Source: Heloderma charlesbogerti (taxonomy: Eukaryota > Chordata > Lepidosauria > Squamata > Helodermatidae). Taken from it: a stretch of 64,000 nucleotides of DNA. The notes under the pieces were generated by a model. That model was not told the origin of the DNA. It searched no databases and worked only from the letters and a program-made list of their open reading frames with translations. Where the stretch lies: the NCBI GenBank assembly GCA_026122225.1, contig JANEZZ010001504.1:124001-188000 (forward strand). The letters run 5' to 3'. A program made the position numbers and the translations under genes. This document shows, in pieces, positions 3,557 through 57,205 of this stretch (position 1 is the stretch's first letter; each line of letters begins with the position of its first letter).

Positions 3557-6500
3557 GGAGGGATCTGCATTTGTTGTTGTTTGTTGTTGTTGTTGTTCAG
3601 TCGTTCAGTCGTGTCCGACTCTTCGTGACCCCATGGACCATAGCACGCCAGGCCTTCCTGTCCTGCGCTCTCTCCCGGAGCGTGCTCAACTTCATATTCA
3701 TTGCATCCGTGATGCTATCTAGCCATCTCATCCTCTGCCGTCCCCTTCTCCTTTTGCCTTCAGTCTTTCCCAGCATCAGGGTCTTTTCCAGGGAGTTTTC
3801 TCTTCGCATTAGGTGGCCAAAATATTGGAGCTTCAGCTTCATTATCTGTCCTTCCAATGAGCACTCAGGGTTGATTTCCTTTAGGATGGACTGATTTGAC
3901 CTCCTTGCAGTCCACGGGACTCGTAAGAGTCTTCTCCAGCACCACAGTTCGAAAGCATCAATTCTTCGGCGCTCAGCCTTCCTTATAGTCCAGCTCTCAC
4001 AGCCATACATTACTACTGGGAAAACCAGAGCTTTGATTAGACGGACCTTTGTCGGCAAGGTGATGTCTCTGCTTCTTACTATGCTGTCTAGGTGTGCCAT
4101 AGCTTTCCTCCCAAGGAGCAAGCGTCTTTTAATTTCAGGGCTACAGTCACCGTCTGCGGTGATCTTGGAGCCCAAGAAAGTAAAATCTGTCACTGCTTCC
4201 ATTTCTACCCCTTCTATATGCCAGGAGGTGATGGGGCCAGATGCCATGATCTTCGTTTTTTTAATGTTGAGTTTCAAACCAGCTTTTGCACTCTTCTCTT
4301 TCACCCTCAACAAGAGGCTCTTTAGATCCTCTTCGCTTTCTGCCATTAGGGTGGTATCGTCTGCATATCGGAGGTTGTTGATAATTCTCCCGGCAATCTT
4401 AATTCCGACCTCTGATTCATCCAACCCGGCATTTCTCATGATGTACTCTGCATATAAGTTAAATAAGCAGGGTGACAATATGCAGCCTTGTCGTACTCCT
4501 TTCCCAATTTTGAACCAATCGGTTGTTCCATCTCTGGTTCTTACTGTTGCTTCTTGACCCTCGTACAGGTTTCTCAGGAGACAGGTAAGGTGGTCTGGTA
4601 CTCCCATCACTTTAAGAATTTGCCACAGTTTGTTGTGATCCACACAATCAAAGGCTTTAGCGTAGTCAATGAAGCAGAAATAGACGTTTTTCTGGAATTC
4701 TCTTGCTTTCTCCATAATCCAGCGAATGTTGGCGATTTGATCTCTAGTTCCTCTGCCTCTTCGAAACCCAGCTTGTACTTCCGGTAGTTCTTGGTTCGCA
4801 TACTGCTGAAGCCTAGCTTGTAGGATTTTGAGCATCACCTTGCTGGCATGTGAAATGAGCGCAATGGTGCGGTAGTTTGAACACTCTTTGACGTTGCCCT
4901 TCTTTGGAATTGGAATGTAAACTGACCTTTTCCAGTCTTGTGGCCACTGTTGAGTGTTCCAGATTTGTTGGCATATTGAATGCAGCACTTTAACAGCATC
5001 ATCTTTTAGGATTTTAAATAGCTCGGCTGGAATACTGTCATCTCCGCTAGCTTTGTTGTTACTAATGCTTCCTAAGGCCCACTTGACTTCACTCTCGAGG
5101 ATGTCCGGCTCAAGTTCAGTGAGCGCACTATCATGGCTATCAGGGACATTCAGATCTTTCCTGTATAGTTCTTCTGTGTATTCTTGCCACCTCTTCTTAA
5201 TCTCCTCTGCTTCTGTTAGGTCCCTGCCTTCTTTGTCCTTTATCATGCCCGTCTTTGCACAAAACGTTCCCTTGAGATCTCCAATTTTCTTGAAGAGATC
5301 TCTAGTCTTTCCCATTCTGTTGTTTTCCTCTATTTCTTTGCATTGTTCATTTAAGAAGGCCTTCTTGTCTCTCCTTGCTATTCTCTGGAACTCTGCATTC
5401 AGTTGGGTATATCTTCCCCTTTCTCCCTTGCTTTTCGCTTCCCTTCTTTCGTGAGCTACTTGTAAAGCCTCATTAGACAGCCACTTGGCTTTCTTGCATT
5501 TCTTTTTCTTTGGGACGGATTTCGTTGCTGCCTCCTGAACAATGTTACGGACCTCCGTCCATAGTTCCTCAGGCACTCTGTCTATCAGGTCTAATCCCTG
5601 AAATCTATTCCTCACCTCCACTGTATATTCATCAGGGATATGATTTAGGTCATACCTGCATGGTTTAGTGGTTTTCCCGACGTTCTTCAATTTAAGCCGA
5701 AATCTTGCAAGAAGCAGCTCATGATCTGAGCCACAGTCAGCTCCAGGTCTTGTTTTTACTGACTGTATGGAGCTTCTCCATCTTTGGCTGCAAAGGACAT
5801 AATCGATCTGATTTCGATATTGACCATCTGGTGATGTCCATGTGTAGAGTCGCCTCTTGTGTTGTTGGAAAAGAGTGTTTGCTATGATCAGCGTGTTGTC
5901 TTGGCAAAACTCTATTAGCCTTTGTCCTGCTTCATTTTGTACACCAAGGCCATGCTTGCCTGTTATCCCGGTGATTTCTTGACTTCCTACTTTAGCATTC
6001 CAATCCCCTATGATGAAGAGGACATCTTTTTTTGGTGTTAGTTCTAGAAGGTGTTGTAGGTCTTCATAGAACCGATCAACCTCAGCTTCTTCGGCCTCAG
6101 TGGTTGGGGCATAGACTTGAATTACTGTGATGTTGAATGGTTTGCCTTGGATTCGTACTGAGATCATTCTATCATTTTTAAGATTGTACCCCAGTACTGC
6201 TTTTCCCACCCTTTTGTTGACTATGAGTGCTACTCCATTTCTTCTAAGGGATTCTTGCCCACAATAGTAGATATGATGGTCACCTGAATTAAATTCGCCC
6301 ATGCCTGTCCATTTTAGTTCGCTGATTCCCAAGATGTCGATGTTCAATCTTGCCATCTCATGTTTGACCACCTCCAGCTTACCTTGATTCATTGATCTGA
6401 CATTCCAGGTTCCTAAACAATATTGTTCTTTATAGCATCGGATTTTCTTTTCACCACCAGACACATCCACAGCTGAGTGTCCTTTCGGGTTTGGCCCAGC

Positions 6501-6817
6501 CGCTTCACTCTTTCTGGCGCTACTTGGAAATACCCTCTGCTCTTCCCCAGTAGCATATTGGACACCTTCCGACCTGAGGGGCTCATCTTCCGGCGTCATA
6601 TCTTTTAGCCTTGTGATACATTCCATGGGGTTTTCTTGGCAAGAATACTGGAGTGGGTTGCCATTTCCTTCTCCAGTGGACCACATTTTGTCAGAACTCT
6701 CTGCCATGACCTGTCCGTCTTGGGTGGCCCTGCACGGCATAGCTTATGGCTTCACTGAGTTACGCAAGCCCCTTCGCCACAACAAGGCAGTGATCCATGA
6801 AGGGGAGGGATCTGCAT
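3557..6817 (-). mobile_element. Full-length RTE-BovB LINE with target-site duplication
   Basis: The element proper is about 3571..6803 (3.23 kb), minus strand. It is bracketed by a 14-bp direct repeat, GGAGGGATCTGCAT, at 3557..3570 and 6804..6817. The 3' end (low coordinates) is a short (AAC)n-like tail, seen on the plus strand as TTGTTGTTG runs at 3571..3597. The 5' leader before the ORF is only about 63 bp. Length, tail and long target duplication agree with target-primed reverse transcription of a complete BovB. The ORF is intact, so this is a recent insertion. Confidence 0.95.
3597..6740 (-). CDS. BovB ORF2 protein: APE-type endonuclease plus reverse transcriptase, intact
   Basis: This open frame of 1047 codons has no stop or frameshift and reaches the family's expected end, with TGA at 3597..3599. 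The endonuclease domain covers roughly residues 108-345: GTWNVRSM near its start, GDWNAKVG near residue 246 and GSDHELL near 336, the Asp/Asn and Ser-Asp-His motifs of APE-like nucleases. The reverse transcriptase covers roughly 560-830: NYRTIALISHASK, QAGFRRGRGTRDQ, FIDYAKAFDCVDH, the conserved RQGCILSPCLFNLY and the catalytic YADD at 792-795. A basic C-terminal region follows. The protein would nick the target and prime reverse transcription of its own RNA. No separate ORF1 is seen, as is usual for RTE elements. All catalytic residues appear present, so enzymatic competence is plausible, but expression cannot be judged. Confidence 0.95.
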   Translation of the reverse strand: MPCRATQDGQVMAESSDKMWSTGEGNGNPLQYSCQENPMECITRLKDMTPEDEPLRSEGVQYATGEEQRVFPSSARKSEAAGPNPKGHSAVDVSGGEKKIRCYKEQYCLGTWNVRSMNQGKLEVVKHEMARLNIDILGISELKWTGMGEFNSGDHHIYYCGQESLRRNGVALIVNKRVGKAVLGYNLKNDRMISVRIQGKPFNITVIQVYAPTTEAEEAEVDRFYEDLQHLLELTPKKDVLFIIGDWNAKVGSQEITGITGKHGLGVQNEAGQRLIEFCQDNTLIIANTLFQQHKRRLYTWTSPDGQYRNQIDYVLCSQRWRSSIQSVKTRPGADCGSDHELLLARFRLKLKNVGKTTKPCRYDLNHIPDEYTVEVRNRFQGLDLIDRVPEELWTEVRNIVQEAATKSVPKKKKCKKAKWLSNEALQVAHERREAKSKGERGRYTQLNAEFQRIARRDKKAFLNEQCKEIEENNRMGKTRDLFKKIGDLKGTFCAKTGMIKDKEGRDLTEAEEIKKRWQEYTEELYRKDLNVPDSHDSALTELEPDILESEVKWALGSISNNKASGDDSIPAELFKILKDDAVKVLHSICQQIWNTQQWPQDWKRSVYIPIPKKGNVKECSNYRTIALISHASKVMLKILQARLQQYANQELPEVQAGFRRGRGTRDQIANIRWIMEKAREFQKNVYFCFIDYAKAFDCVDHNKLWQILKVMGVPDHLTCLLRNLYEGQEATVRTRDGTTDWFKIGKGVRQGCILSPCLFNLYAEYIMRNAGLDESEVGIKIAGRIINNLRYADDTTLMAESEEDLKSLLLRVKEKSAKAGLKLNIKKTKIMASGPITSWHIEGVEMEAVTDFTFLGSKITADGDCSPEIKRRLLLGRKAMAHLDSIVRSRDITLPTKVRLIKALVFPVVMYGCESWTIRKAERRRIDAFELWCWRRLLRVPWTARRSNQSILKEINPECSLEGQIMKLKLQYFGHLMRRENSLEKTLMLGKTEGKRRRGRQRMRWLDSITDAMNMKLSTLRERAQDRKAWRAMVHGVTKSRTRLND

Positions 6818-18536: not shown

Positions 18537-19135
18537 CTCCATAGTAGGGATGGGAGAGAATTTCTCCCCGAAACTTCAGGGGGCCGAGCGCCAACGCATT
18601 CGGTCCTCCGAAGGTTGTTTGGGGAGAACTTCTCCGCCCCCCCCCTGGGATGGGACTTACCTTTCACGAATGTCCCTCCCGGCGGCGGGTCCCGGCGGCG
18701 GTTCGGCAGGTCTTCGTCAGGGGCGGGGACGGTAGCCGGTCTTTTGACCGGCTGCCGCCGCCGCCGCCATTACAAGCAAAGTAAAAAAACCCACAACACC
18801 CCTGTGATAGGCTACGTAACGATTAACGTAGCCTATCACAGCTAGATTTGCAAAGTCAGCCGTGATAGGCTACGTTAATCGTCACGTAGCCTATCACAGG
18901 GGCGGTTTTTTTTTCTTTTGAAGTTCGCAGCCGGGGAGATGGGGCGCTTCTCCCCGGCCTGAATTTCGGCCGGGCGAGGTGGGAAGCCTCCCCCCCGGCC
19001 TGAATTTCGGCCGGGTGAGGAGGGAAGCCTCCCCCCCCGGCCTGAACTTCGGGGGGAGCAGCGAAGCGCCTCCCCCCCACCGCGAAGCAAGCTGCGAGAC
19101 CAGGTAAGTGACTTTCGTGCACCCCTACTCCATAG
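18537..19135. mobile_element. GC-rich palindrome-bearing non-autonomous hAT element, copy 1
   Basis: Element 18545..19127 (583 bp), flanked by a perfect 8-bp duplication CTCCATAG at 18537..18544 and 19128..19135. Ends are TAGGGATG on the left and CACCCCTA on the right; 8-bp duplications with such ends are typical of hAT transposons. The left arm is GC-rich with GGCGGCGGG tracts and CCGCCGCCATT. The core has two 36-bp palindromes (18804..18839 and 18862..18897, arms GTGATAGGCTACGT) separated by 22 bp. The right arm has three units beginning GGCCTGAATTTCGGCCGGG or variants. Outward-facing splice-donor consensus GGTAAGT occurs at 18655..18661 (minus) and 19103..19109 (plus). No transposase. Confidence 0.93.
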
Positions 19136-25784: not shown

Positions 25785-26430
25785 ATGCACCCTTTCTGAG
25801 CCTTTTTACACAAGACTTTTATTGTGCACTCATGATTCCTCACTCACGGTAGTTTGTAAAAAATCTTTACGTAGCCTATTACTTGAAGAACAGGGATGCA
25901 AATGGCATCCACTATGCAGAGGCGGCCGGCAGCTCAGTAGACTTGCTGCGGAGCAGAGCCGACCAGGGCCGGCAAGGATTCTGGGGGGGAGGGACGAATC
26001 GCCTCCCCCCCGTGGACCCAAGGAAAGGGGGTTTCGCACACCTCTACGGCCCGGTTCCTAACAGGCCACGGACCGGGACCGGTCCGTGGCCCGGGAGTTG
26101 GGGTCCCCTGCTTTACACAATGCCATCATCCTCCAGGGCCTCTCCTGTGCTTTGTGACCATTATCGTGGTTTTTTTCCTAACGAGGAAAGCGCAGTATTT
26201 TTCTCAGAATGGCCTCTATAATGCCATAGAACTCTCATGTAATTGTACAATTCTGCTATCCCACAGTGCCACCGAGTGGTTGTATAATGGAACATAGAGA
26301 AAGCCAGAGAAAGAAAACCCCGTGTGTGTGTGCGTGTGCACGTGCGTAAAGGAGCCAATCTTAACCCTGCAAAGAATCCGGAAGCACAAGCCTTGGTAAT
26401 GGTGCGTTTTAAAAGCTTCACATAGAAAAG
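25785..26430 (+). repeat. Unclassified dispersed repeat (ACAAGGCTTTTATT family), copy 1, split by a hAT end
   Basis: TTTTTACACAAGACTTTTAT, CGGTAGTTTG, then CATCCTCCAGGGCCTCTCCT, GTTGTATAATGGAACATAGA and TGCAAAGAATCCGGAAGC correspond in order to 35820..36175. An insertion of about 245 bp (25866..26111) interrupts it. It ends GGGGTCCCCTG and has a GGCCACGGACCGGGACCGGT inverted segment, the wording of a hAT terminus. Confidence 0.6.
25866..26111. mobile_element. GC-rich hAT-type fragment nested in a dispersed repeat
   Basis: Sequence absent from the paralogous copy at 35880. Right end GAGTTGGGGTCCCCTG and flank CTTTACAC versus CTTTACGT on the left (6 of 8). It includes near-palindromic ACGGACCGGGACCGGTCCGT. 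Confidence 0.5.
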
Positions 26431-29799: not shown

Positions 29800-30276
29800 T
29801 CACTTCCCTGCTCTATACCAGGCTGCTCTGCAAGTTTCTGTAAGTCTCTGTGGAGCTTTCACCAGCCTTCCTGACCGCTGGGGCATCTCACCTTCCTTCA
29901 CTTTGTCTTCCGTAATGTCATGCTGAGGAACAACCCTTTTTTCATCCTGCTCCTGTAACCATGCAAGCAGTGCTGATGTACGATCTGCTTTGTTCTCACC
30001 TGCTGAAGCAACTGTGTAATTTTGGGGGAGTGCCTGGAGATCGGGACGATTACACCGAAAAGTCTCTCCCTGATCTGTCTGAATTAAATATGATCGTGGA
30101 TGCACTAGCTGCTGGACAGCGCCCCTCTGATCCCAGATATTGGAGCTGTAATTTCTCATGCACACTTTGTCACCTGGTTGCAGGCCAGGGAGCTCTTTTT
30201 TTTTTTTGTCAAAATGATGTTTTTGCAGTTGCTTCAGAACTTTTCTTTTTTTCTTTTTCTTTCTTTCTTCATACAT
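29800..30276 (-). pseudogene. Gypsy-type integrase C-terminal region, decayed
   Basis: 158 codons. LQPGDKVCMRNY and a following RSYLIQTDQGETFRCNR block fit the SH3-like C-terminal part of retroelement integrases. It is separated from the catalytic core (30449..30709) by broken sequence. Confidence 0.75.
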
Positions 30277-30448
30277 CTATATGGTCAAGCCTTGTAAGTA
30301 ATTCCGCAGTTATGGGTACTGTAGAACATATTCTTCTTCTCATGAGTAACTGTGCAGGGAACCAGCCACTGTCCAGTGGTGTACTGAGGTAAGCCAATAG
30401 TGCTTTATATAAATCCCCTCTGCTGTCAGCTGCCTTTTTCATCACGTT

Positions 30449-30709
30449 TTAAACAGTTTGGATGGACCTTTCCACAAGACCACTGGATTGGGGGTAATGG
30501 GGACTTGATGTACTGTGATGAAAGTTCCAGTCCTTTGCAAACTGCTTAAACTCTGAACTGGAAAACTGAGGCACATTGTCACTAAACAGTTCACATGGAA
30601 TTCCGTGCCTTGCAAACACTGCCTTCAGGCTAGCTATCACTGACGCACTGTTTGTACCATTCAGATTGCAGATCTCCGGATACAAAGAGGAATACTCAGT
30701 AACAATCAA
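30449..30709 (-). pseudogene. Gypsy-type integrase catalytic core, decayed
   Basis: It contains FSDNVPQFSS (second catalytic Asp region) and SSGLVERS (catalytic Glu). The first Asp motif appears altered, with Glu where Asp is expected. The frame is cut on both sides. Confidence 0.8.
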
Positions 30710-30715
30710 GTATGT

Positions 30716-31204
30716 TCATGAATTCCAAGTGAAGAGGGCGGTGCCTACCTTCACATATACCCTCGGTGGGACAGGGAGTGGAAGCAGAGGCTCTGCCTGC
30801 TGGGATGGCTGGAACTTTAAACAAGTGAAGCAGCTTGCTACTGTGTTAGCAATATCCTGGTTGATCCATGGCCAATACATGACCTCCCATGCCCTGTTCT
30901 TACATTTTTCAGTTCCTAGATGACCTTCATGGATCTTTCTGAGCATTTCATGCCGGAGGATCCTTGGAATCACTACCTTGCTGCCTTTGAAAATCACCCC
31001 ATCTATTACTGAGAGGTCATGCCTGCAGTGCCAGTACTCCCATAGGCTTGGATCACAGCTGCAGCGGTCCTGTAGCCACCCTTCAAGTATATGTTTTTTT
31101 AGGAGACCTATGGCCTCATCGTTCTCCGTTTCCACTTTGATTAGCTGGAATTTTCTATCAGATATGGGAAGTGACTGTACTATCAGATCTACATATGCCT
31201 GCAC
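30716..31204 (-). pseudogene. Gypsy-type integrase N-terminal zinc-binding region
   Basis: An HHCC zinc-binding pattern is visible: the His residues in IHEGHLG and nearby, and the pair CFTC, followed by proline-rich LLPLPVPP. The frame ends before the catalytic core, which continues in another frame. Confidence 0.8.
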
Positions 31205-31788
31205 CTGTCAGAAATATGCTTTGGGTGTAATGAAGGCTGTATGGCCCTGGACAGTGCATCTGCTGTGGACATCAATTTTCCTGGTGTGTAAAACACAGTC
31301 AAGTCATATTTTTGTAGTTTGAGCATCATTCTTTGGATTCTCAAAGTGCAGTCATTTAATGGCTTCTCAAACCATGCTATCAGAGGTTTATGGTCAGTTT
31401 CTTCTTGCACTTTCTGTCTATAGATAAACTGGTGAAATCTCTGGCAAGCAAACAGGATGCCCAACAGCTCTTTTTTGATCTGGGCATACCTGGTTTCTGC
31501 CTCTGTCAATGCCTTGGATGCATATGCCACTGGTTGCCAGCAACCACCATGGTCCTGAATAATCACTGCACCCAGCCCTGATTGTGAGGCATCAGAAGAA
31601 ATCTTGAGTGGCTTGCCAGAATCATAGAATTTTAACACACGGGCTTTGATAAGTTCCTGTTTCAAGATGGTCCATGCTTCCTCCTGTGGTGCATCCCAGA
31701 ACCACTCATGTTTGTTTTCAAGAAGTGCCCAGAGGGGTGTTGCTTTAGATGACAAACTTGGTATAAATTTCCCAAGGTAATTAACCAT
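31189..31788 (-). pseudogene. Gypsy-type RT connection and RNase H
   Basis: VNYLGKFIPSLS marks the end of the RT thumb; SSDASQSGLGAVI (first RNase H Asp), KKELLGILFACQRFHQ (Glu), ETDHKPL (Asp) and STADALSRA follow in the usual order. About 200 codons remain open. Confidence 0.9.
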
Positions 31789-31797
31789 CCTTAGGAA

Positions 31798-32450
31798 TCA
31801 CTGTACATCTTTCTTGGACTGGGGCCGTGGCATCATTTCATTGGCCTCAACCTTTCTCTTGTCAGGTTTTACCCCCTCAGTAGAGATCACATTTCCCAAA
31901 AATGTCAGCTCAGTGACTCCAAACACATATTTTTCTTTATTTAATTTCAGATTTGCTGCTCTTGTTGCATCTAAGACCTTCTGAAGCCTCAGATCAGCTT
32001 TGGTAGAACCCCACAGAAGGATATCATGCACTGAGGTGTCCACTCCATCAATGTGCTCATATATCATGTGTATAGTTCTATGGTACACTTCAGATGCTGA
32101 AGCCACACCAAATGGGAGCTGCAGAAAATAATATCTGCCAAAGGGCGTATTAAATGTGCCGAGTCTGAAGCTCTCCTCTGTGAGTTTTAATTGCCAAAAG
32201 CCGGGGGACGCATCAAGTTTACTGAAAAAACAGGCATTTGCAAACTGTGCCATGATTTCCTACCTAGTTGGAAGTTTGAAATGCTCTGTCTTGATAGACT
32301 TGTTGAGGCTTCTGGGATCAAGACATTCCCGTATCTTGCCATTCTCTACAATGACTAGAGAGCCCACCCATTCTGTGGGTTCCTCAATCTTCTCTATGAC
32401 CTTTAAAGCCTCCATCCTTGAGAGCTCCAGAGTTTGTCACGGAGTGTAAA
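31798..32450 (-). pseudogene. Gypsy-type reverse transcriptase, decayed active site
   Basis: FFSKLDASPGFWQLKL (palm block A), RYYFLQLPFGVASA (block B) and ELTFLGNVIS are clear. The catalytic YxDD block is damaged: the visible residues are SVHDILLWG. The upstream fingers region continues to about 32450 but is separated by an in-frame stop near 32260. Confidence 0.88.
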
Positions 32451-32486
32451 AGGCACTCTTCTGCATGGATGGATCACTGGGGAAAC

Positions 32487-33131
32487 TTATTTATTTATTT
32501 GGATGGTATGTTCACCTGGTAAACACCCAAATCCTTCAAATATACCTTCATAATGCAAAAGAAGTGTCTCATACTCTTTTCCCCCATTGGTTTGTACGGC
32601 CAGTACCCGTTTAACCAGGTTCAGCTTCTCACATGCCGCCAAACCTGGAATTGGAGTCACCTGTTTAGGAACTATAATAAATGCCAAGTTATGCACAGTG
32701 TCTTTGCACCTGATGCTGGCAATGCAGCGCCACTTTACTGGTATCTTTACTCCAGAATACCCAGTTAGTTGAATACCTGTGGGATGTATTTTTGGCCTTA
32801 CTTGGAGCCTTTCATAAACTTCTTCAGGCAACGCATTAACCTGAGCACCTGTGTCTAGCTTAAAGGACACCATTGTTCCTTGTACTTCCACTGGCAGATT
32901 CCAGTCCTTCCCATTCTCTCTGTCTGATTCCACGACATCCACAAAAACCTGTTTCTCCTGCTCAACAGCATGTACGTGTGGTTTTAGTACTTGTGACCTG
33001 CAATATTTTGCAAAGTGGTTGTGCTTCCCACAGACTTTCCCAAATTCAACACGCTGTTTTTGCCTGTGCTGCCTGCCAGTTTCTGCAAGCTTCACTCCAC
33101 CCTCTGCTTCCTTTCCCAGGAGCTTCGTTAG
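32487..33131 (-). pseudogene. Gypsy-type gag zinc knuckle and aspartic protease
   Basis: The knuckle reads VCGKHNHFAKYC; the first Cys of the CCHC pattern is replaced by Phe. The protease motif LDTGAQVNALP follows about 80 residues later, with the TGYSGVKIPVKW and GLAACEKLNLV regions typical of gypsy proteases. Upstream the frame runs into the nested hAT element, so the N-terminal 100 or so codons of this open frame are transposon-derived. Confidence 0.88.
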
Positions 33132-33801
33132 GTGGCTGCTAGGGATGGTGGAGAATTTCTCCCCGAATCTTCGCGAGGCCGAATGCCAATGCATTCGGCC
33201 CCCCGAAATTGGTGGGGAAATTCTCCGCCCGCCCCCCCCAGGATGGAGCTTACCGTGGCTGAATGTCCCTCTCGGCAGCGGGTCCCGGTGGCGGTTCAGC
33301 AGCGTTTCGGGGGGGGCGGGGGCCGGTCTCCCAACCGGCTGCCGCCGCCATTGCAAAAAAAAAAAAAAAGTGCAGTAAAAAACAACAACACACATCCGTG
33401 ATAGGCTACGTAACGATTTACGTAGCCTATCATGGCTAGATTTCCAAAGTCACCCGTGATAGGCTACGTGACGATTTACATAGCCTATCACGGCTGACTT
33501 TGGAAATCTAGCCGTGATAGGCTACGTAAATCGTTACGTAGCCTATCACGGGTATGTGTGTGTTTGTTTTTGTTTTTTACTCTTTTTTTCGCGGCTGGGT
33601 AGACGGGGCACTTCTACCTGGCCTGAATTTCGCCGGCGAGGGATGGGGCGCCTCCCCCCCCGGCCTGAATTTCGGCCGGGTGAGGCAGGGCGCCTCCTCC
33701 CCCTCGGCTGAACTTCGGGGGGAGAACCGAGGAGCCTCCCCCCCACCGTGAAGCAAGCTTCGAGAACAGGTAAGGGACTTTCGCCCATCCCTAGTGGCTG
33801 C
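33132..33801. mobile_element. GC-rich palindrome-bearing non-autonomous hAT element, copy 2
   Basis: Element 33140..33793 (654 bp) inside gag, with perfect 8-bp duplication GTGGCTGC (33132..33139 and 33794..33801). Ends TAGGGATG and CATCCCTA are perfect inverted repeats. The core carries three 36-bp palindromes at 33398..33433, 33456..33491 and 33514..33549, separated by 22-bp spacers that are inverted copies of each other (CTAGATTTCCAAAGTCAC / CTGACTTTGGAAATCTAG). Splice-donor-like GGTAAG occurs at both arms (33249..33254 minus; 33769..33774 plus). Non-coding. Confidence 0.95.
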
Positions 33802-33959
33802 TGCACTCTCTCATTTAACTTTTGCTGGCCCTGTTGTTGCTTGCTTAATGAATGGTCAGTCTCTTCAGCTGCCCTCAGTTCTTTTGCTTGGGCCCTCGCT
33901 ACCTCTGCTGCCCTACATATCTTGAGAGTTTTTTCTAGTGTGAGATCTTCTTCATGCAA
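33802..33959 (-). pseudogene. Gypsy-type gag, middle fragment
   Basis: Helix-rich, charged sequence (EEDLTLEKTLKICRAAEV, EETDHSLSKQQQ) of the gag capsid/linker, cut at its C-terminal side by the hAT insertion at 33793. Confidence 0.7.
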
Positions 33960-34085
33960 CAGCCTTTCTTGTATTGCATTCTTCCTAATACCACAAATAA
34001 TCCAGTCTCTGATCAGTCTGTCAGGGACCCAAAGGCACAGGTCTTGCTAAGAGTTTTGAGCTCCATAGTATATTGCTCTATGCTT

Positions 34086-40252: not shown

Positions 40253-41907
40253 TACAGTCAGGGCCAGAAATACTGGAACAAGGGTAACTGTTTTGGCAGT
40301 TGGCCTCTGTACACCACCACATTCAAGTTGAAAGGAAACACACCCAGATGGGAGCAAAGTCAGGACTTTCAGCTGTAATTCAAGGGGTTTGACAAAAGTG
40401 GGGCACTAACCATTCAGGAAGGACAGCCAGTGGCATACACACACACCCATCGTTGGGGGCTCATAAGTAATGGAACAAACCAACATCATTTCAAACTTAA
40501 GGATTGCCTTTAATACCTGGATGAAAATCCTTTGCAGTCAATGACTGCCTGAAGTCTGGAACCCACGGACATGACCAAATGCTGAGTTTCCTCCCTCGAG
40601 ATGCTTTGCCAGGCCTTTACTGCAGCTGCCTTCAGCTGCTGCTTGTTTGTGGGTCTTTCTGCCTTCAGTCTTGTCTTCAGTAAGTGAAAAGCATGCTCTA
40701 TTGGGTGGAGATCAGGTGACTGACTTGGCCATTGAAGAACATCCCACTTCTTTGCCTGGAGAAACTCTTGGGTAGCTTTTGCTGTATGTTTGGGTCATTA
40801 TCCATCTGCAATATGAAGTGGCGTCCTATCAGTTTGGCAGCATTCGGCTGAATCTGAGCAGAAAGTATAGCCCTATACACTTCAGAATTCATCCTGCTGC
40901 TTTTATCAGCAGTTAGGTCATCAATAAACACCAGTGACCCGGTTCCATTGGCAGCCATACATGCCCATGCCATAACACTGCCTCCACCATGTTTGGCAGA
41001 TGATGTGGTATGCTTTGGATCATGAGCTGTTCCTTCCCTTCTCCATACTTTTCTCTTCCCATCATTCTGGTACAAGTTAATCTTGATTTCATTAGTCCAC
41101 AGAATCTTATTCCAGAACTGGGCAGGCTTTTTTAGGTGTTTGCTGGCAAAGGCTAATCTGGCCTTTCGGTTCTTGAGCGTTCCCAGTGGTTTGCACCTTG
41201 TTGTGAAGCCTCTGTATTTACATTCATAAAGCCGTCTCTTGACTGTAGATGTCGACAATGACATGCCTACCTCCGCAAGAGCGTTCTTGACCTGGCTAGA
41301 TGTTGTGAAAGGGTTCCTCTTCACCATGAGCAGAATTCTGTGGTCATCCACTTTAGTTGTCTTCTGTGGTCTGCCAGGTCTTTTGCTGTTGCTGAGCTTG
41401 CCAGTTAATTCCTTCTTTTTCAGGATGTTCCAAACTGTTGTATTGGCCTCTCCCACTGTTTTTGCTCTCTCTCTGATGGGTTTATTCTGTTTCCTCAGCC
41501 TAATGATGGCCTCCTTCACTCGCATGGACACCTCTTTGGACCTCCTGTTGGGAGTTCCAGTGAACAGCTACCACATGCAAATGTAACACTCAGAACCACC
41601 TCCAGGCCTTTTATCTGCTTGATGGGTCATGGGGCACCCAGGAAACAGGCCACACCTGGCCATGCAGCTGCTTGTCAGCCATTCGTTCCATTACTTATGA
41701 GCCACCAACGATGGGTGTGTGTGTATGCCCTGGCTGTCCTTCCTGAATGGTTAGTGCCCCACTTTTGTCAAACCCCTTGAATTACAGCTGAAAGTTCTGA
41801 CTTCACTCCCATCTGGGTGTGTTTCCTTTCAACTTCAATGTGGTGGTGTACAGAGGCCAACTGCCAAAACAGTTATCCTTCTTCCAATATTTCTGGCCCT
41901 AACTGTA
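40253..41907 (-). mobile_element. Tc1-like DNA transposon with long terminal inverted repeats
   Basis: Element 40255..41905 (1651 bp) between TA dinucleotides. Ends CAGTCAGGGCCAGAAATA and TATTTCTGGCCCTAACTG. The inverted similarity continues for about 220 bp on each side (40255..40480 and 41680..41905), including CCATCGTTGG and TCATAAGTAATGGAAC, with only scattered differences. This is a long-TIR Tc1 with a single transposase gene on the minus strand. Confidence 0.95.
40599..41531 (-). pseudogene. Tc1-family DDE transposase with a one-base deletion
   Basis: Tc1 transposases excise and reinsert at TA sites. The frame from 41531 gives the bipartite HTH DNA-binding region (residues 1-100, with RPGRPQKT as hinge), then the catalytic domain. 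The first catalytic Asp is replaced: ILWTNEIK has Asn147 where families have WSDE. The second Asp is present (LQMDNDP). A base is missing near 40788..40791, which sends the frame to a stop at 40698. The third catalytic residue (Glu in PIEH, near 40695) and the C-terminus continue in another frame to about 40600. A Met start is at 41525; the frame is also open upstream of it without ATG. One missense at a catalytic Asp plus a frameshift means it is inactive. Confidence 0.92.
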
Positions 41908-52020: not shown

Positions 52021-53947
52021 TCAGTCATTAAGTCGTGTTCGACTCTTCGTGACCCCATGGACCATAGCACGCCAGGTCTTCCTGTCCTCCGCTCTCTCCC
52101 GGAGTGTGCTCAAGTTCATATTCATTGCATCGGTGATGCTATCTAGCCATCTCATCCTCTGCCGTCCCCTTCTCCTTTTGCCTTCAGCCTTTCCCAGCAT
52201 CAGGATCTTTTCCAGAGAGTTTTCTCTTCTCATTAGGTGGCCAAAATATTTGAGCTTCAGCTTCAGTATCTGTCCTTCCAATGAGCACTCAGGGTTGATT
52301 TCCTTTAGTATGGACTGGTTTGACCTCCTTGCAGTCCAGGGGACTCGTAAGAGTCTTCTCCAGCACCACAGTTCGAAAGCATCAATTCTTCGGCGCTCAG
52401 CCTTCCTTATAGTCCAGCTCTCACAGCCATACATTACTACTGGGAAAACCATAGCTTTGATTAGATGGACCTTTGTCGGCAAGGTGATGTCTCTGCTTCT
52501 TACTATGCTGTCTAGGTTTGCCATAGCTTTCCTCCCAAGGAGCAAGGGTCTTTTAATTTCATGGCTACAGTCACCGTCTGCGGTGATCTTGGAGCCCAAG
52601 AAAATAAAATCTGTCACTGTTGCCATTTCTTCCCCTTCTATATGCCAGAAAGTGATGGGGCCAGATGCCATTACCTTCGTTTTTTTAATGTTGAGTTTCA
52701 AACCAGCTTTTGCACTCTCCACTTTCACCCTCAACAAGAGGCTCTTTAGATCCTCTTCGCTTTCTGCCATTAGGGTGGTATCGTCTGCGTATCTGAGGTT
52801 GTTGATAATTCTCCCAGCAATCTTAATTCCAACCTGTGATTCATCCAACCTGGCGTTTCTCGTGATGTACTCTGCATATAAGTTAAATAAGCAGGGCGAC
52901 AATATGCAGCCTTGTCGTATTCCTTTCCCAATTTTGAACCAATCGGTTGTTCCATGTCCGGTTCTTACTGTTGCTTCTTGACCCTCGTACAGGTTTCTCA
53001 GGAGACAGGTAAGGTGGTCTGGTACTCCCATCACTTGAAGAATTTGCCACAGTTTGTTATGATCCACACAATCAAAGGCTTTAGCGTAGTCAATGAAGCA
53101 GAAGTAGACGTTTTTCTGGAATTCTCTTGCTTTCTCCATGATCCAGAGAATGTTGGCGATTTGATCTCTAGTTCCTCTGCCTCTTCGAAACCCAGCTTGT
53201 ACTTCCGGTAGTTCTCGGTTCACATGCTGCTGAAGCCTAGCTTGTAGGATTTTGAGCATCACCTTGCTGGCATGTGGAATGAGCGCAATTGTACGGTAGT
53301 TTGAACACTCTTTGGCATTGCCCTTCTTTGGAATCGGAATGTAAACTGACCTTTTCCAGTCTTGTGGCCACTGTTGAGTGTTCCAAATGTGTTGGCATTT
53401 TGAGTGCAGCACTTTAACAGCATCATCTTTTAGGATTTTAAATAGCTTAGCTGGGATACTATCATCTCCGCTAGCTTTGTTGTTACTAATGCTTCCTAGG
53501 GCCCACTTGACTTCACTCTCTAGGATGTCCGGCTCAAGTTCAGTGACCACACTATCATGGCTATCAGGGACATTCAGATCTTTCCTGTATAGTTCTTCTG
53601 TGTATTCTTTCCCCCTCTTCTTAATCTCATCTGCTTCTGTTAGGTCCCTGCCTTCTTTGTCCTTGATCATGCCCGTCTTTGCACAAAACGTTCCCTTGAG
53701 ATCTCCGATTTTCTTGAAAAGATCTCTAGTCTTTCCCATTCTATTGTTTTCCTCGATTTCTTTGCATTGTTCATTTAAGAAGGCCTTCTTGTCTCTCCTT
53801 GCTATTCTCTGGAACTCTGCATTCAGTTGCATATATCTTCCCCCTTCTCCCTTGCTTTTTGTTTCCCTTCTTTCCTCAGCTACTTGTAAAGCCTCAACAG
53901 ACAGCCACTTGGCTTTCTTGCATTTCTTTTTCTTTGGGATGGATTGA
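52021..53947 (-). pseudogene. BovB reverse transcriptase half, open reading frame
   Basis: The reverse transcriptase part is intact from IPKKKKCKK to the terminal LND, including QAGFRRGRGTRDQ, FIDYAKAFDCVDH, RQGCILSPCLFNLY and RYADDTT. It differs from the copy at 3597 by scattered substitutions. The frame runs on into the hAT element up to 54210, giving a 729-codon chimeric ORF whose first ~90 codons are transposon sequence. Confidence 0.93.
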
Positions 53948-54694
53948 GTTGCTGCTAGGGATGGCGGAGAATGTCTCCCCGAATTTTCGGGGGGGCCGAG
54001 CGCCAACGCATTCGGCCCCCCGAAATCGGCGGTGAAATTCTCCGCCCCCCCGGGACGGGACTTACCTTTGGCGAATGTCCCTCCCAGCGGCGGGTCCTGG
54101 TGGCAGTTCGTCACGGGCGGGGGCGGCAGCCGGTCTCCTGACCGGCCGCCGCCGCCATTGCAAAAAACAAAACAAAACCTAAAGTAAAAAAAACACACAC
54201 ACCCGTGCATAGGCTACGTAATGGTTTACGTAGCCTATCACGGCTAGATTTCCAAAGTCAGCCGTGATAGGCTACGTAAATCGTCACGTAGCCTATCACG
54301 GGTGACTGTGGAAAAAAAAAAAAGCGCGTACGCAAATGGTGGTCCCCATAGGAGCCGCCATTTGTGTACGCGCTTTTTTTTTTTTTCAAAGTCACCTGTG
54401 ATAGGCTACGTGACGATTTACGTAGCCTATCACGGCTGACTTTGGAAATCTAGCCATGATAGGCTACTTAAATCGTCACGTAGCCTATCACGGGGTCTTT
54501 GTTTGTTTGTTTTAACTTTTTGTTTCGCAGCTGGGGAGATGGGGCGCTTCTCCCCGGCCTGAATTTCGGCCGGGCGAGGCGGGAAGCCTCCCCCCCCTCG
54601 CTTGAACTTCGGGGGGAGAAGCGAAGCGCCTCCCCCCCACCGCGAAGCCAAGCTGCGAAAAGGTAAGTGACTTTCGTACATCCCTAGTTGCTGC
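53948..54694. mobile_element. GC-rich palindrome-bearing non-autonomous hAT element, copy 3 (longest)
   Basis: Element 53956..54686 (731 bp), perfect 8-bp duplication GTTGCTGC (53948..53955 and 54687..54694). The other BovB copy reads GTTGCTGC once at this point, proving the insertion. The core holds four palindromes (54205..54241, 54264..54299, 54398..54433, 54456..54491) placed symmetrically around a hairpin (54312..54386). Donor-like GGTAAGT lies at 54060..54066 (minus) and 54662..54668 (plus). Non-coding. Confidence 0.96.
54312..54386. repeat. 28-bp-arm hairpin at the centre of hAT copy 3
   Basis: Arms A12-GCGCGTACGCAAATGG and CCATTTGTGTACGCGC-T12, one mismatch, loop of about 19 bp. Absent from copies 1 and 2. 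Confidence 0.92.
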
Positions 54695-55310
54695 CTCCTG
54701 AACAATGTTACGGACCTCCGTCCATAGTTCCTTAGGCACTCTGTCTATCAGGTCTAATCCCTGAAATCTATTCCTCACCTCCACTGTATATTCATAAGGG
54801 ATATGATTTAGGTCATACCTGAATAGTTTAGTGGTTTTCCCAACGTTCTTCAATTTAAGCTGAAATTTTTCAAGAAGCAGCTCATGATCTGAGCCACAGT
54901 CAGCTCCAGGTCTTGTTTTTACTGACTGTATAGAGCTTCTCCATCTTTGGCTGCAAAGGACATAATCAATCTGATTTCGATATTGACCATCTGGTGATGT
55001 CCATATGTAGAGTCGCCTCTTGTGCTGTTGGAAAAGAGTGTTGGCTATGATCAACGTGTTCTCTTGGCAAAACTCTATTAGTCTTTGTCCAGCTTCATTT
55101 TGTACACCAAGGCCATGCTTGCCTGTTATCCCGGTGATTTCTTGACTTCCTACTTTAGCATTCCAATCCCCTCTGATGAAGAGGACATCTTTTTTTGGTG
55201 TTAGTTCTAGAAGGTGTTGTAGGTCTTCATAGAACCAATCAACTTCAGCTTCTTCGGCCTCAGTGATTGGGGTATAGACTTGAATTAGTGTGATGTTGAA
55301 TGGTTGGCTA
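54695..55310 (-). pseudogene. BovB endonuclease half, 5'-truncated
   Basis: PFNITLIQVYTP, RGDWNAKVG (a Gly-Asp-Trp-Asn motif preceded by Arg where the intact copy has Ile-Gly) and CGSDHELLLEKF are visible. The upstream ~200 codons are missing. Confidence 0.9.
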
Positions 55311-55321
55311 AATACAAGCAA

Positions 55322-57024
55322 GCAATGCTATTTCATATTACTGAGAAACCAAACTGAATATTTGGATATACTGTATTAATTCTTTAAAAATTCAATAAAG
55401 CTAAAGCAATTTTCCACAAATGTATCCCACCTTTGTCTGTTTTCTGTTATAATGCATTAACTTTGTCATAATAGCAAGATCCCATACTTCATTTATACAG
55501 CAATCTGCATGTTTACTCAGAAGAAAGTGCCACTGAGTTCAGTGCTGGATATGCGTAGGTAAGTGATTGCAGCCTTAACCATTCATCAACTGAGGGTAAT
55601 TTTTGCAATCTGCAGGGTTTTTTGCATAAAGTATTCTTGCCACAGTTACTATAAATGATGCTAACGCTTTGTGACTGATGAATAAATTCTTGCATATAAA
55701 ACACTTGCGGCTAATGAAATTTCATTACCCAATATTTTCTCAATTATCCAATTAACCATTCTCTAACATTTCTTTGTCACTAGGCATTCCCACTACATAC
55801 AGTAGAAATGTCACATTCGTTTCTGACATATCTGACAATTAATTGAATAGGTCTTGCTAATTTTATTTATGATAACTGGAGTTATATACCATTTTATCAT
55901 TACTTTATACAGATTTTCTTTGACAGACATATTTAAAGGAAAATTATTATCACTACTCCACAAGCTATCCCATACTTCTAAAGATATAATTTTCCACCCC
56001 CGCCCCACAAAATTATGTCCATTTTATCATATCAGTTGTAAACCTGCACCCATTTATCCAGGAGTAAGCCCAATGAACTCAGTAGGACTACTTAGTAGAC
56101 ATCCAAAGGGTTGCCCAAATAGTTTTTAACTTGCTCTGGTTCAGTTTCATATTTTAGAAGTAATTTATACAATTAGGTAATAAATATTCTTTATCCTTTG
56201 CTATGTATTTTTCATAATCCATGAGATCTCTGAGCTATAGATTTGTTCTGCATTATTTTGTAACAAGCAAACGATTGTGAAAATATTCAAACCATGGGGG
56301 AGATGTGTCATTTAATTTTGTCTTTATCTCCAAGTAACATATTATATTGTTCAGATTTACAAAATCTTCATATCTAAAGTAGGCGTTCCTTTCTGGATTT
56401 TAAAATGTGATTTAACTTTTTCCAGCCTTCTGTTTAGAAACTTAATGGTCATAATGATAGACTCAGCAGAGCTTTATACTGATCTCATAACCTTAATAAT
56501 TTTGAAATTAAAACTTTTTTTGCTTCAGCTGTTCTAGAAACATTATTTCCCCACAACATAGCATGTAAAGATGCCTTCATCAAGGCTTTTTCAAACAAAG
56601 AAATTAAAGAGTTCAGTTCTAATATCTATTGATATAGTTGGCAATGTAATATAATTTCAGATTAGAGGCTGACAGCCCCCACCCCTTGTCTTTTGAATGA
56701 TATAATACCATAGCATTTGGTCTTACTATTTCCCATTCCATATCTATTTTAACAAGAGTTGTTGCCATTTATTCATCTGCTGTGATGAAATTTTATTTGG
56801 AAGATACTGAAATTTTAAAAAAACACATTTTTTAATGATACTGTAATTTTTATTGTGGCAATTCTTCCTGAGAATGATATAACTTTTCTCATTGTTGAAC
56901 TAATAAGTCACATCCCTTAGAAAAGCTCATAATTATATATATATAATTCATTTATCGTATTTGGTAACTTCATCACCAGGTTTCTTACAGTGCAATCTTA
57001 GCCCCACAATGTTTAGGAAAAACG
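55322..57024. other. AT-rich intron sequence
   Basis: Old foldback fragments at 55490..55580 and 56040..56120, a (TA)n run at 56934..56948. Otherwise AT-rich and unassigned. Confidence 0.4.
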
Positions 57025-57026
57025 GA

Positions 57027-57205
57027 ATATAGAAAGCTGCCTTATACTGAGTCAGACCATTGGTCCATCTAGCCCGGTACTGTCAACCCTGGCTGGCAGC
57101 AATGGCTCCCCAGTCCTTCCTAGCCCTACCTGGAGATGCCGGGGATCGAACCTGACCCTTCTGTGTGCAAAGCAGGTGCTCCACCACTGAGCCATGGCCC
57201 CTCCT
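57027..57205 (-). repeat. tRNA-derived SINE (inverted)
   Basis: AAGCTGCCTTATACTGAGTC, AGACCATTGGTCCATCTAGC, GGGGATCGAACCTGACCC and GCAGGTGCTCCACCACTGAG. Read on the minus strand it has A- and B-box-like blocks (GGTTCGATCCCC). Confidence 0.88.

Follow-up and report, generated by a model that had tools for sequence, protein, structure and literature searches.

The target-site duplications (TSDs) of hAT transposons carry the base bias nTnnnnAn. The Foldback elements of Drosophila are DNA transposons whose inverted repeats undergo restructuring and vary in number, and in which long terminal inverted repeats (TIRs) make up most of the element. We know of no vertebrate hAT that has been described with an interior of recurring palindromes. 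In Hermes, two BED domains cooperatively bind an AAGT/AAGC quasi-palindrome at about bp 15-23 of the left end, to which AAGTACTT is the counterpart in Tol2, according to the part of the source available to us (PMC10368747). The same part of this source considers it unlikely that auxiliary transposases bound inside the ends of Hermes contribute to transposition, and states that Hermes in cells requires some internal feature, which is not yet identified (PMC10368747).

Here we show that three elements in a 64,000-nucleotide stretch of the Heloderma charlesbogerti genome (hereafter the window) belong to a large set of modular non-autonomous hAT-type DNA transposons. The 731-bp element among them has the TIRs TAGGGATG at its start and CATCCCTA at its finish, and the 8-bp TSD that flanks both ends is perfect (Table 1). 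It is an insertion, because its flanks, when joined with one TSD removed, align without gaps to a second BovB copy of the window (400/400 bases, 95%). A full-length copy that is 90% identical is located elsewhere in the host genome. A first-pass annotation had described four 36-bp palindromes around a hairpin, and coordinates and arm matching confirmed this layout, with two palindrome pairs, one on each side of the hairpin, in which six of the eight arms are exact copies of GTGATAGGCTACGT while one has two and one has three mismatches. The spacers (54242-54263 and 54434-54455) nearly match when one of them is inverted, much as had been claimed, but both are 22 bp long rather than 19-22 bp. The suggestion that the centre folds on itself was also borne out, since positions 54186-54342 and 54355-54511 form an inverted repeat that is 88% complementary with the arms 12 nt apart.

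Both ends are common to the 583-bp, 654-bp and 731-bp elements, and perfect 8-bp TSDs were found in all three. The two shorter copies contain two and three palindromes, as previously annotated, and the number of modules thus varies from two to four among the window copies. Kind-A arms with at most three mismatches occur 21 times in the window, whereas 100 shuffled versions had 2.57 on average and never more than 8. Shuffles led us to reject a chance origin of the palindromes and of the folds.

Table 1. Coordinates of the palindrome elements and their parts in the window.
Feature	Position	Strand	Remark
Two-palindrome element, 583 bp	18545..19127	.	TSD CTCCATAG
Kind-A palindrome, two-palindrome element	18804..18839	.	
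Kind-A palindrome, two-palindrome element	18862..18897	.	
Three-palindrome element, 654 bp	33140..33793	.	TSD GTGGCTGC
Kind-A palindrome, three-palindrome element	33398..33433	.	
Kind-A palindrome, three-palindrome element	33456..33491	.	
Kind-A palindrome, three-palindrome element	33514..33549	.	
Left TSD	53948..53955	.	GTTGCTGC
Four-palindrome non-autonomous hAT element, 731 bp	53956..54686	.	TIRs, TSD, empty site
Whole centre, inverted repeat	54186..54511	.	157-nt arms; RNA fold z -33.6
Kind-A palindrome 1	54206..54241	.	left arm with 3 mismatches
Kind-A palindrome 2	54264..54299	.	
Central hairpin with kind-B palindrome (ACGCAAATGG..CCATTTGTGT)	54313..54386	.	A-run and T-run on either side of the palindrome
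Kind-A palindrome 3	54398..54433	.	
Kind-A palindrome 4	54456..54491	.	left arm with 2 mismatches
Subterminal quasi-palindrome AAGTGACTT	54665..54673	.	bp 14-22 from right terminus of 731-bp element
Right TSD	54687..54694	.	GTTGCTGC

Other, in part putative, mobile sequences are also present in the window. The 731-bp element splits a BovB LINE copy (52021-55327), which is one of two copies in the window with long open frames, the other being located at 3597-6743. The best match to the window BovB that bears an organism name is from Podarcis muralis (82%). The records P0038, P0039, P0063 and P0069, which bear the names of bacteria or of Babesia, include BovB pieces of 627-697 aa that are 82-83% identical and look like contamination of those records with animal DNA. 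The three-palindrome element is inserted within a region of the reverse strand (29800-34046) where the frames resemble, by eye, a Ty3/gypsy-type retroelement, and a frame of 289 aa on the same strand (40698-41567) resembles, also by eye, a Tc1-type transposase. A truncated relict at approximately 25862-26046 has one A arm with one mismatch, a B-like sequence and a terminus-like end, and adjoins what appears by eye to be another repeat. Finally, a tRNA-like match on the reverse strand (57131-57201; 30.3 bits at a cut-off of 29) may be the head of a SINE.

The palindromes are abundant throughout the host genome (2.302 Gb, 3246 contigs). The kind-A pattern, GTGATAGGCTACGT-N8-ACGTAGCCTATCAC, in which 26 bases are fixed and the loop is N8, had 148,730 exact matches, which is on average one per 15 kb, whereas the reversed control had none. 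Likewise, there were 52,402 exact matches to the kind-K palindrome TAGTCTACGTAAANNTTTACGTAGACTA and 21,440 (10,729 + 10,711) to the 25-bp terminus TAGGGATGTACGAAAGTCACTTACC, with control counts of 0 for both. These three counts reject the idea of a purely local array, and refute the scenario, considered in the first-pass annotation, of only three copies with unrelated termini. The exact kind-A palindrome had no matches in viral contigs.

The first 50 exact kind-A palindromes listed on contig C1 correspond to 26 loci with 27 elements, 21 of which combine both termini with a TSD that has no more than one mismatch; the six loci without such a TSD (L009, L022, L024, L033, L034, L036) each have at least one recognisable terminus. 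Selection by the terminus alone (L081-L084) yielded palindromes in 4/4 elements and a perfect TSD in 3/4. The first 2.88 Mb of C1 contain 14 exact termini, and palindromes are associated with at least ten of these, namely the four elements just mentioned, which were read, and six more that were assigned from coordinates by an exact A or K palindrome inside the element. The 21 elements from C1, seven of those that match the window element best and the three window copies constitute a set of 31 elements, which admits only TSDs with at most one mismatch and is not unbiased, because it joins copies from these three sources. If the ratio of palindromes to elements in C1 is general, we arrive by rough extrapolation at approximately 80,000 elements and, at the mean length of 872 bp in the 31-element set, about 3% of the genome. 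In particular, this initial 2.88-Mb part of C1 is poorer than the genome on average, with palindromes at about 17 per Mb versus 65 and exact termini at about 5 versus 9.

The 31 elements span 583-2097 bp, the longest being a nested pair, and the un-nested copies that were read measure 583-1231 bp. They are too short for a gene of 880 aa, and the contents seen are palindromes and ends. The elements share two ends, which are unlike each other, and carry between them an interior put together from repeatedly used palindromes of the kinds A, K and B. Unlike in Foldback, the symmetry of the TIRs is short and the long inverted repeat is central: past TAGGGATG/CATCCCTA, after about 8-10 bp, the two ends differ. 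The base preference of the TSDs agrees with the hAT bias, with T at position 2 in 34/72 and A at position 7 in 34/72 when 36 TSDs are counted in both orientations. Thus, the assignment to hAT in the first-pass annotation is supported by the 8-bp TSDs, the TIRs and a transposase-coding copy in the genome with the same terminus. Chained similarity separates the 31 elements into several families, among which the modules are mixed. Kind A has GTGATAGGCTACGT arms, kind K has the same core with different outer bases, and kind B, which has ACGCAAATGGCGGC arms, may resemble a YY1 site. Yet another module is a GGCGGCAGCCGGTC palindrome close to one element end. The centre is a single inverted repeat of 280-337 bp in at least L035, L039, L041, L043 and the 731-bp window element.

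Sequence conservation is unevenly distributed along the elements. Among 11 family representatives drawn from the 31-element set (55 pairs), identity is 0.92 for the left 15 bp, 0.82 for the right 25 bp and, inflated by the collection of the arms by similarity, 0.89 for the kind-A arms. In comparison, the subterminal stretches (bp 30-150) show identities of 0.71 on the left and 0.67 on the right, where a shuffled control of the left stretch gave 0.59 (55 pairs). We also collected the A and K half-sites with at most two changes from the core (n=306 in the 31 elements), of which 284 have an inverted partner that starts at most 10 bp away. The core letters T, A, G, C, T and A are each present in 298-305 of these half-sites and the fourth letter is G or T in 288, values that are inflated because likeness to the core was the criterion of collection; an A at position +11, which is outside the collection pattern, is present in 284. 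Internal AAAGTCA motifs were identified 64 times in 22/31 elements, as compared to a mean of 2.3 and a maximum of 6 in 50 shuffles, and 63 of these begin exactly 10 bp ahead of an A arm in the direction of the arm. Therefore, the arm in those elements is AAAGTCASCC-GTGATAGGCTACGT.

Changes in the two arms of a palindrome indicate where the symmetry arose. Identical changes in both arms were counted 71 times in all 137 palindromes of the 31-element set, as compared to a shuffle mean of 18.4 (another count, over 123 palindromes, gave 36 versus 9.3 expected). The excess resides in the K class, where 26 palindromes have 64 double changes versus a mean of 55.1, a value of 64 being reached in 25/1000 shuffles. 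The 111 non-K palindromes have 7 double changes versus a mean of 5.7, with 7 reached in 345/1000 shuffles, and 116 one-sided changes. Ongoing copying from arm to arm inside the inserted copies is thereby rejected. Rather, the symmetric change is ancestral and inserted copies decay arm by arm, so that the palindrome is maintained in source elements and not in place.

A candidate partner for the short elements was found among the hAT transposases of the same genome. A search for the hAT dimerisation domain gave 871 candidates, of which 150 were scored and all 150 matched, and the 30 loci fetched represent one family with frames of up to 883 aa, while the frame in L078 is 908 aa. The 883-aa and 908-aa frames matched PF05699 (E 6.8e-17 and 5e-16), and in one of the two a BED domain scored 20.2 bits, just below the cut-off of 20.6. 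The frame in L074 matched solved Hermes structures over 772-839, and its closest relatives in the database are lizard and gecko proteins (37-41%), which, like the match of the window BovB to Podarcis muralis, suggests a squamate as the host. The start of L078, TAGGGATGTCAGAGAATTCCGCC, contains 23 bp identical to one end of the short elements L021, L035 and L038. We consider this start to be a true element boundary, because the flanks ahead of it and in six further copies are unrelated, as judged by eye. These copies were recovered via the first 547 bp of L078; among the copies with this boundary, L078 is the one shown to hold a transposase frame, and the link between terminus and transposase thus consists of this one copy. 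A 3' end and a TSD of L078 were looked for and not found. L087 was left out of the boundary count because it mirrors L086 and shares its flank: the hAT end and flank are present at C3051:43150-46290 as a mirror pair, 3.1 kb apart and identical where read, which represents either an inverted duplication or an assembly artefact.

The 8.7 kb of the transposase-coding L078 contain none of the A, K and B palindromes, and as far as this copy shows, the palindromes are therefore not obligatory transposase sites. Four other loci (L074, L075, L077, L079) have only single B-like 12-mers with at most two mismatches, and short elements are nested inside the coding copy L076. Approximately 190 bp past the transposase stop, TAGGGATGTACG on the reverse strand in L044-L079 equals 12 bp of the left end of the short elements, and beyond it lies sequence common to most copies; it is either a relict of an older end or due to chance. 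Because most copies share the sequence beyond it, GTACATCCCTA, which is also located about 190 bp past the stop, was rejected as the element end.

To explain the palindromes, we put the chances at about even that they are arrays of predicted dimeric binding sites, maintained in source elements and read by the transposase or a host protein. Of the roles suggested in the first-pass annotation, clustered binding sites agree best with the results. The short elements would depend for their mobility on a hAT transposase supplied in trans by an element with the same terminus, TAGGGATGTCAGAGAATTC, and each palindrome would be a putative site for a two-fold symmetric protein, with half-sites TAG[G/T]CTACGTNA facing each other across the loop. 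The reader may be the DNA-binding domain of the transposase or, as an equal candidate, a host protein. Source elements bearing palindromes would be better amplified, so that the motif is kept while the remainder drifts, and arrays may gain and lose modules by duplication and deletion between repeats. That the A arms of the family representatives are more similar than the subterminal stretches speaks for predicted binding sites, as do the genome-wide counts of exact palindromes and termini, the near-invariant core of the half-sites with the additional A at +11, and the terminus that L078 shares with the short elements. The left ends contain the AAGT-n-ACTT pair at about bp 14-22, a place like that of the Hermes pair, in 17/31 elements, AAGT alone in 7/31 and neither in 7/31. 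The 17/31 speak for this reading and the 14/31 without the full pair speak against it, as do the lack of palindromes in L078 and the view of auxiliary binding in Hermes cited above.

Another hypothesis, which we regard as rather improbable although it is to be taken seriously, is that the palindromes were born by inverted duplication, through abortive gap repair or template switching during replication, and hitch-hike with the elements without any function being needed. The spacers and loops that are inverted twins, the varying module number, the nested centres of up to 280-337 bp among the elements listed and, within the 50 listed K palindromes, the eight pairs in mirrored orientation at a distance of 74-75 bp are as expected from such a process. 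However, the A core is constant across families whose subterminal sequence has drifted, and 11 of the 14 K palindromes listed, from a total of 26, retain the core although their two arms do not agree in the outer four bases. Recent exchange of modules between families could, on the other hand, mimic the constancy of the core.

It is more doubtful still that the structure itself matters, with a cruciform or single-strand fold-back that joins the termini or aids amplification during replication. The best fold of the four-palindrome copy does pair the first with the last 8 bases, and the DNA folds have z-scores of -27.4 for the 731-nt element (20 shuffles), -16.6 for the copy at 33140-33793 (20 shuffles) and -14.4 for the copy at 18545-19127 (100 shuffles). 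However, the core is much more constant than base pairing demands. The few double and many one-sided changes in the non-K palindromes also count against a role of the structure, but weakly, because decay after insertion is expected either way. Lastly, it is very improbable that the arrays are transcribed into hairpin RNAs as a source for small-RNA silencing or a means to escape it. The fold of the 326-nt centre as RNA, at -255 kcal/mol (z -33.6, 100 shuffles), speaks for this possibility, but no Rfam family reached its gathering score in the 731-bp element and a hairpin offers no reason for a constant core.

Going beyond the predicted binding sites, we speculate, with some scepticism of our own, that a hAT lineage evolved a modular recruitment platform, in which arrays of symmetric sites are read by the transposase or a captured host factor and freely combined with other palindromic sites. 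If true, such a platform enabled non-autonomous elements to spread in the tens of thousands, sowing on average one exact palindrome every 15 kb. Should a host protein bind the palindrome, the genome already offers it about 149,000 exact copies. The palindromes are also a natural material for studies of the birth and loss of palindromes in a vertebrate genome.

No description of such palindrome elements was recognised in the open papers searched, as judged from titles and the starts of abstracts, with Repbase and Dfam outside the scope. The 13-letter kind-A arm had no matches there as a text string, and a search for the terminus string in the transposon literature returned nothing on such elements by title. 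The word stem "palindrom" does not occur in the available part of a text on hAT-derived CGG-binding proteins (PMC8097297). Since we found no description, and judging novelty on the literature with Repbase and Dfam set aside, we consider the palindrome elements to be an apparently undescribed variant of the known non-autonomous hATs.

The likeness to the described systems is partial in each case. Like Galileo in Drosophila, they are DNA transposons with restructuring inverted repeats that vary in number, but Galileo belongs to the P superfamily and has very long TIRs with tandem repeats, as described in the available part of the source (PMC4168063), whereas the TIRs are short and the palindromes central in the present elements. 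With Hermes and Tol2 they share a quasi-palindrome of AAGT motifs close to the left terminus; in these, as far as the available part of the source describes, further binding occurs at short motifs scattered across the ends (PMC10368747), in contrast to 36-bp central palindromes at a pitch of 58 bp. The vertebrate non-autonomous, MITE-like hATs are similar in being short, with no gene seen, 8-bp TSDs with the nT....An bias, short TIRs and very many copies. Unlike in those, the interior of the elements described here is a grammar of recurring palindromes and nested inverted repeats.
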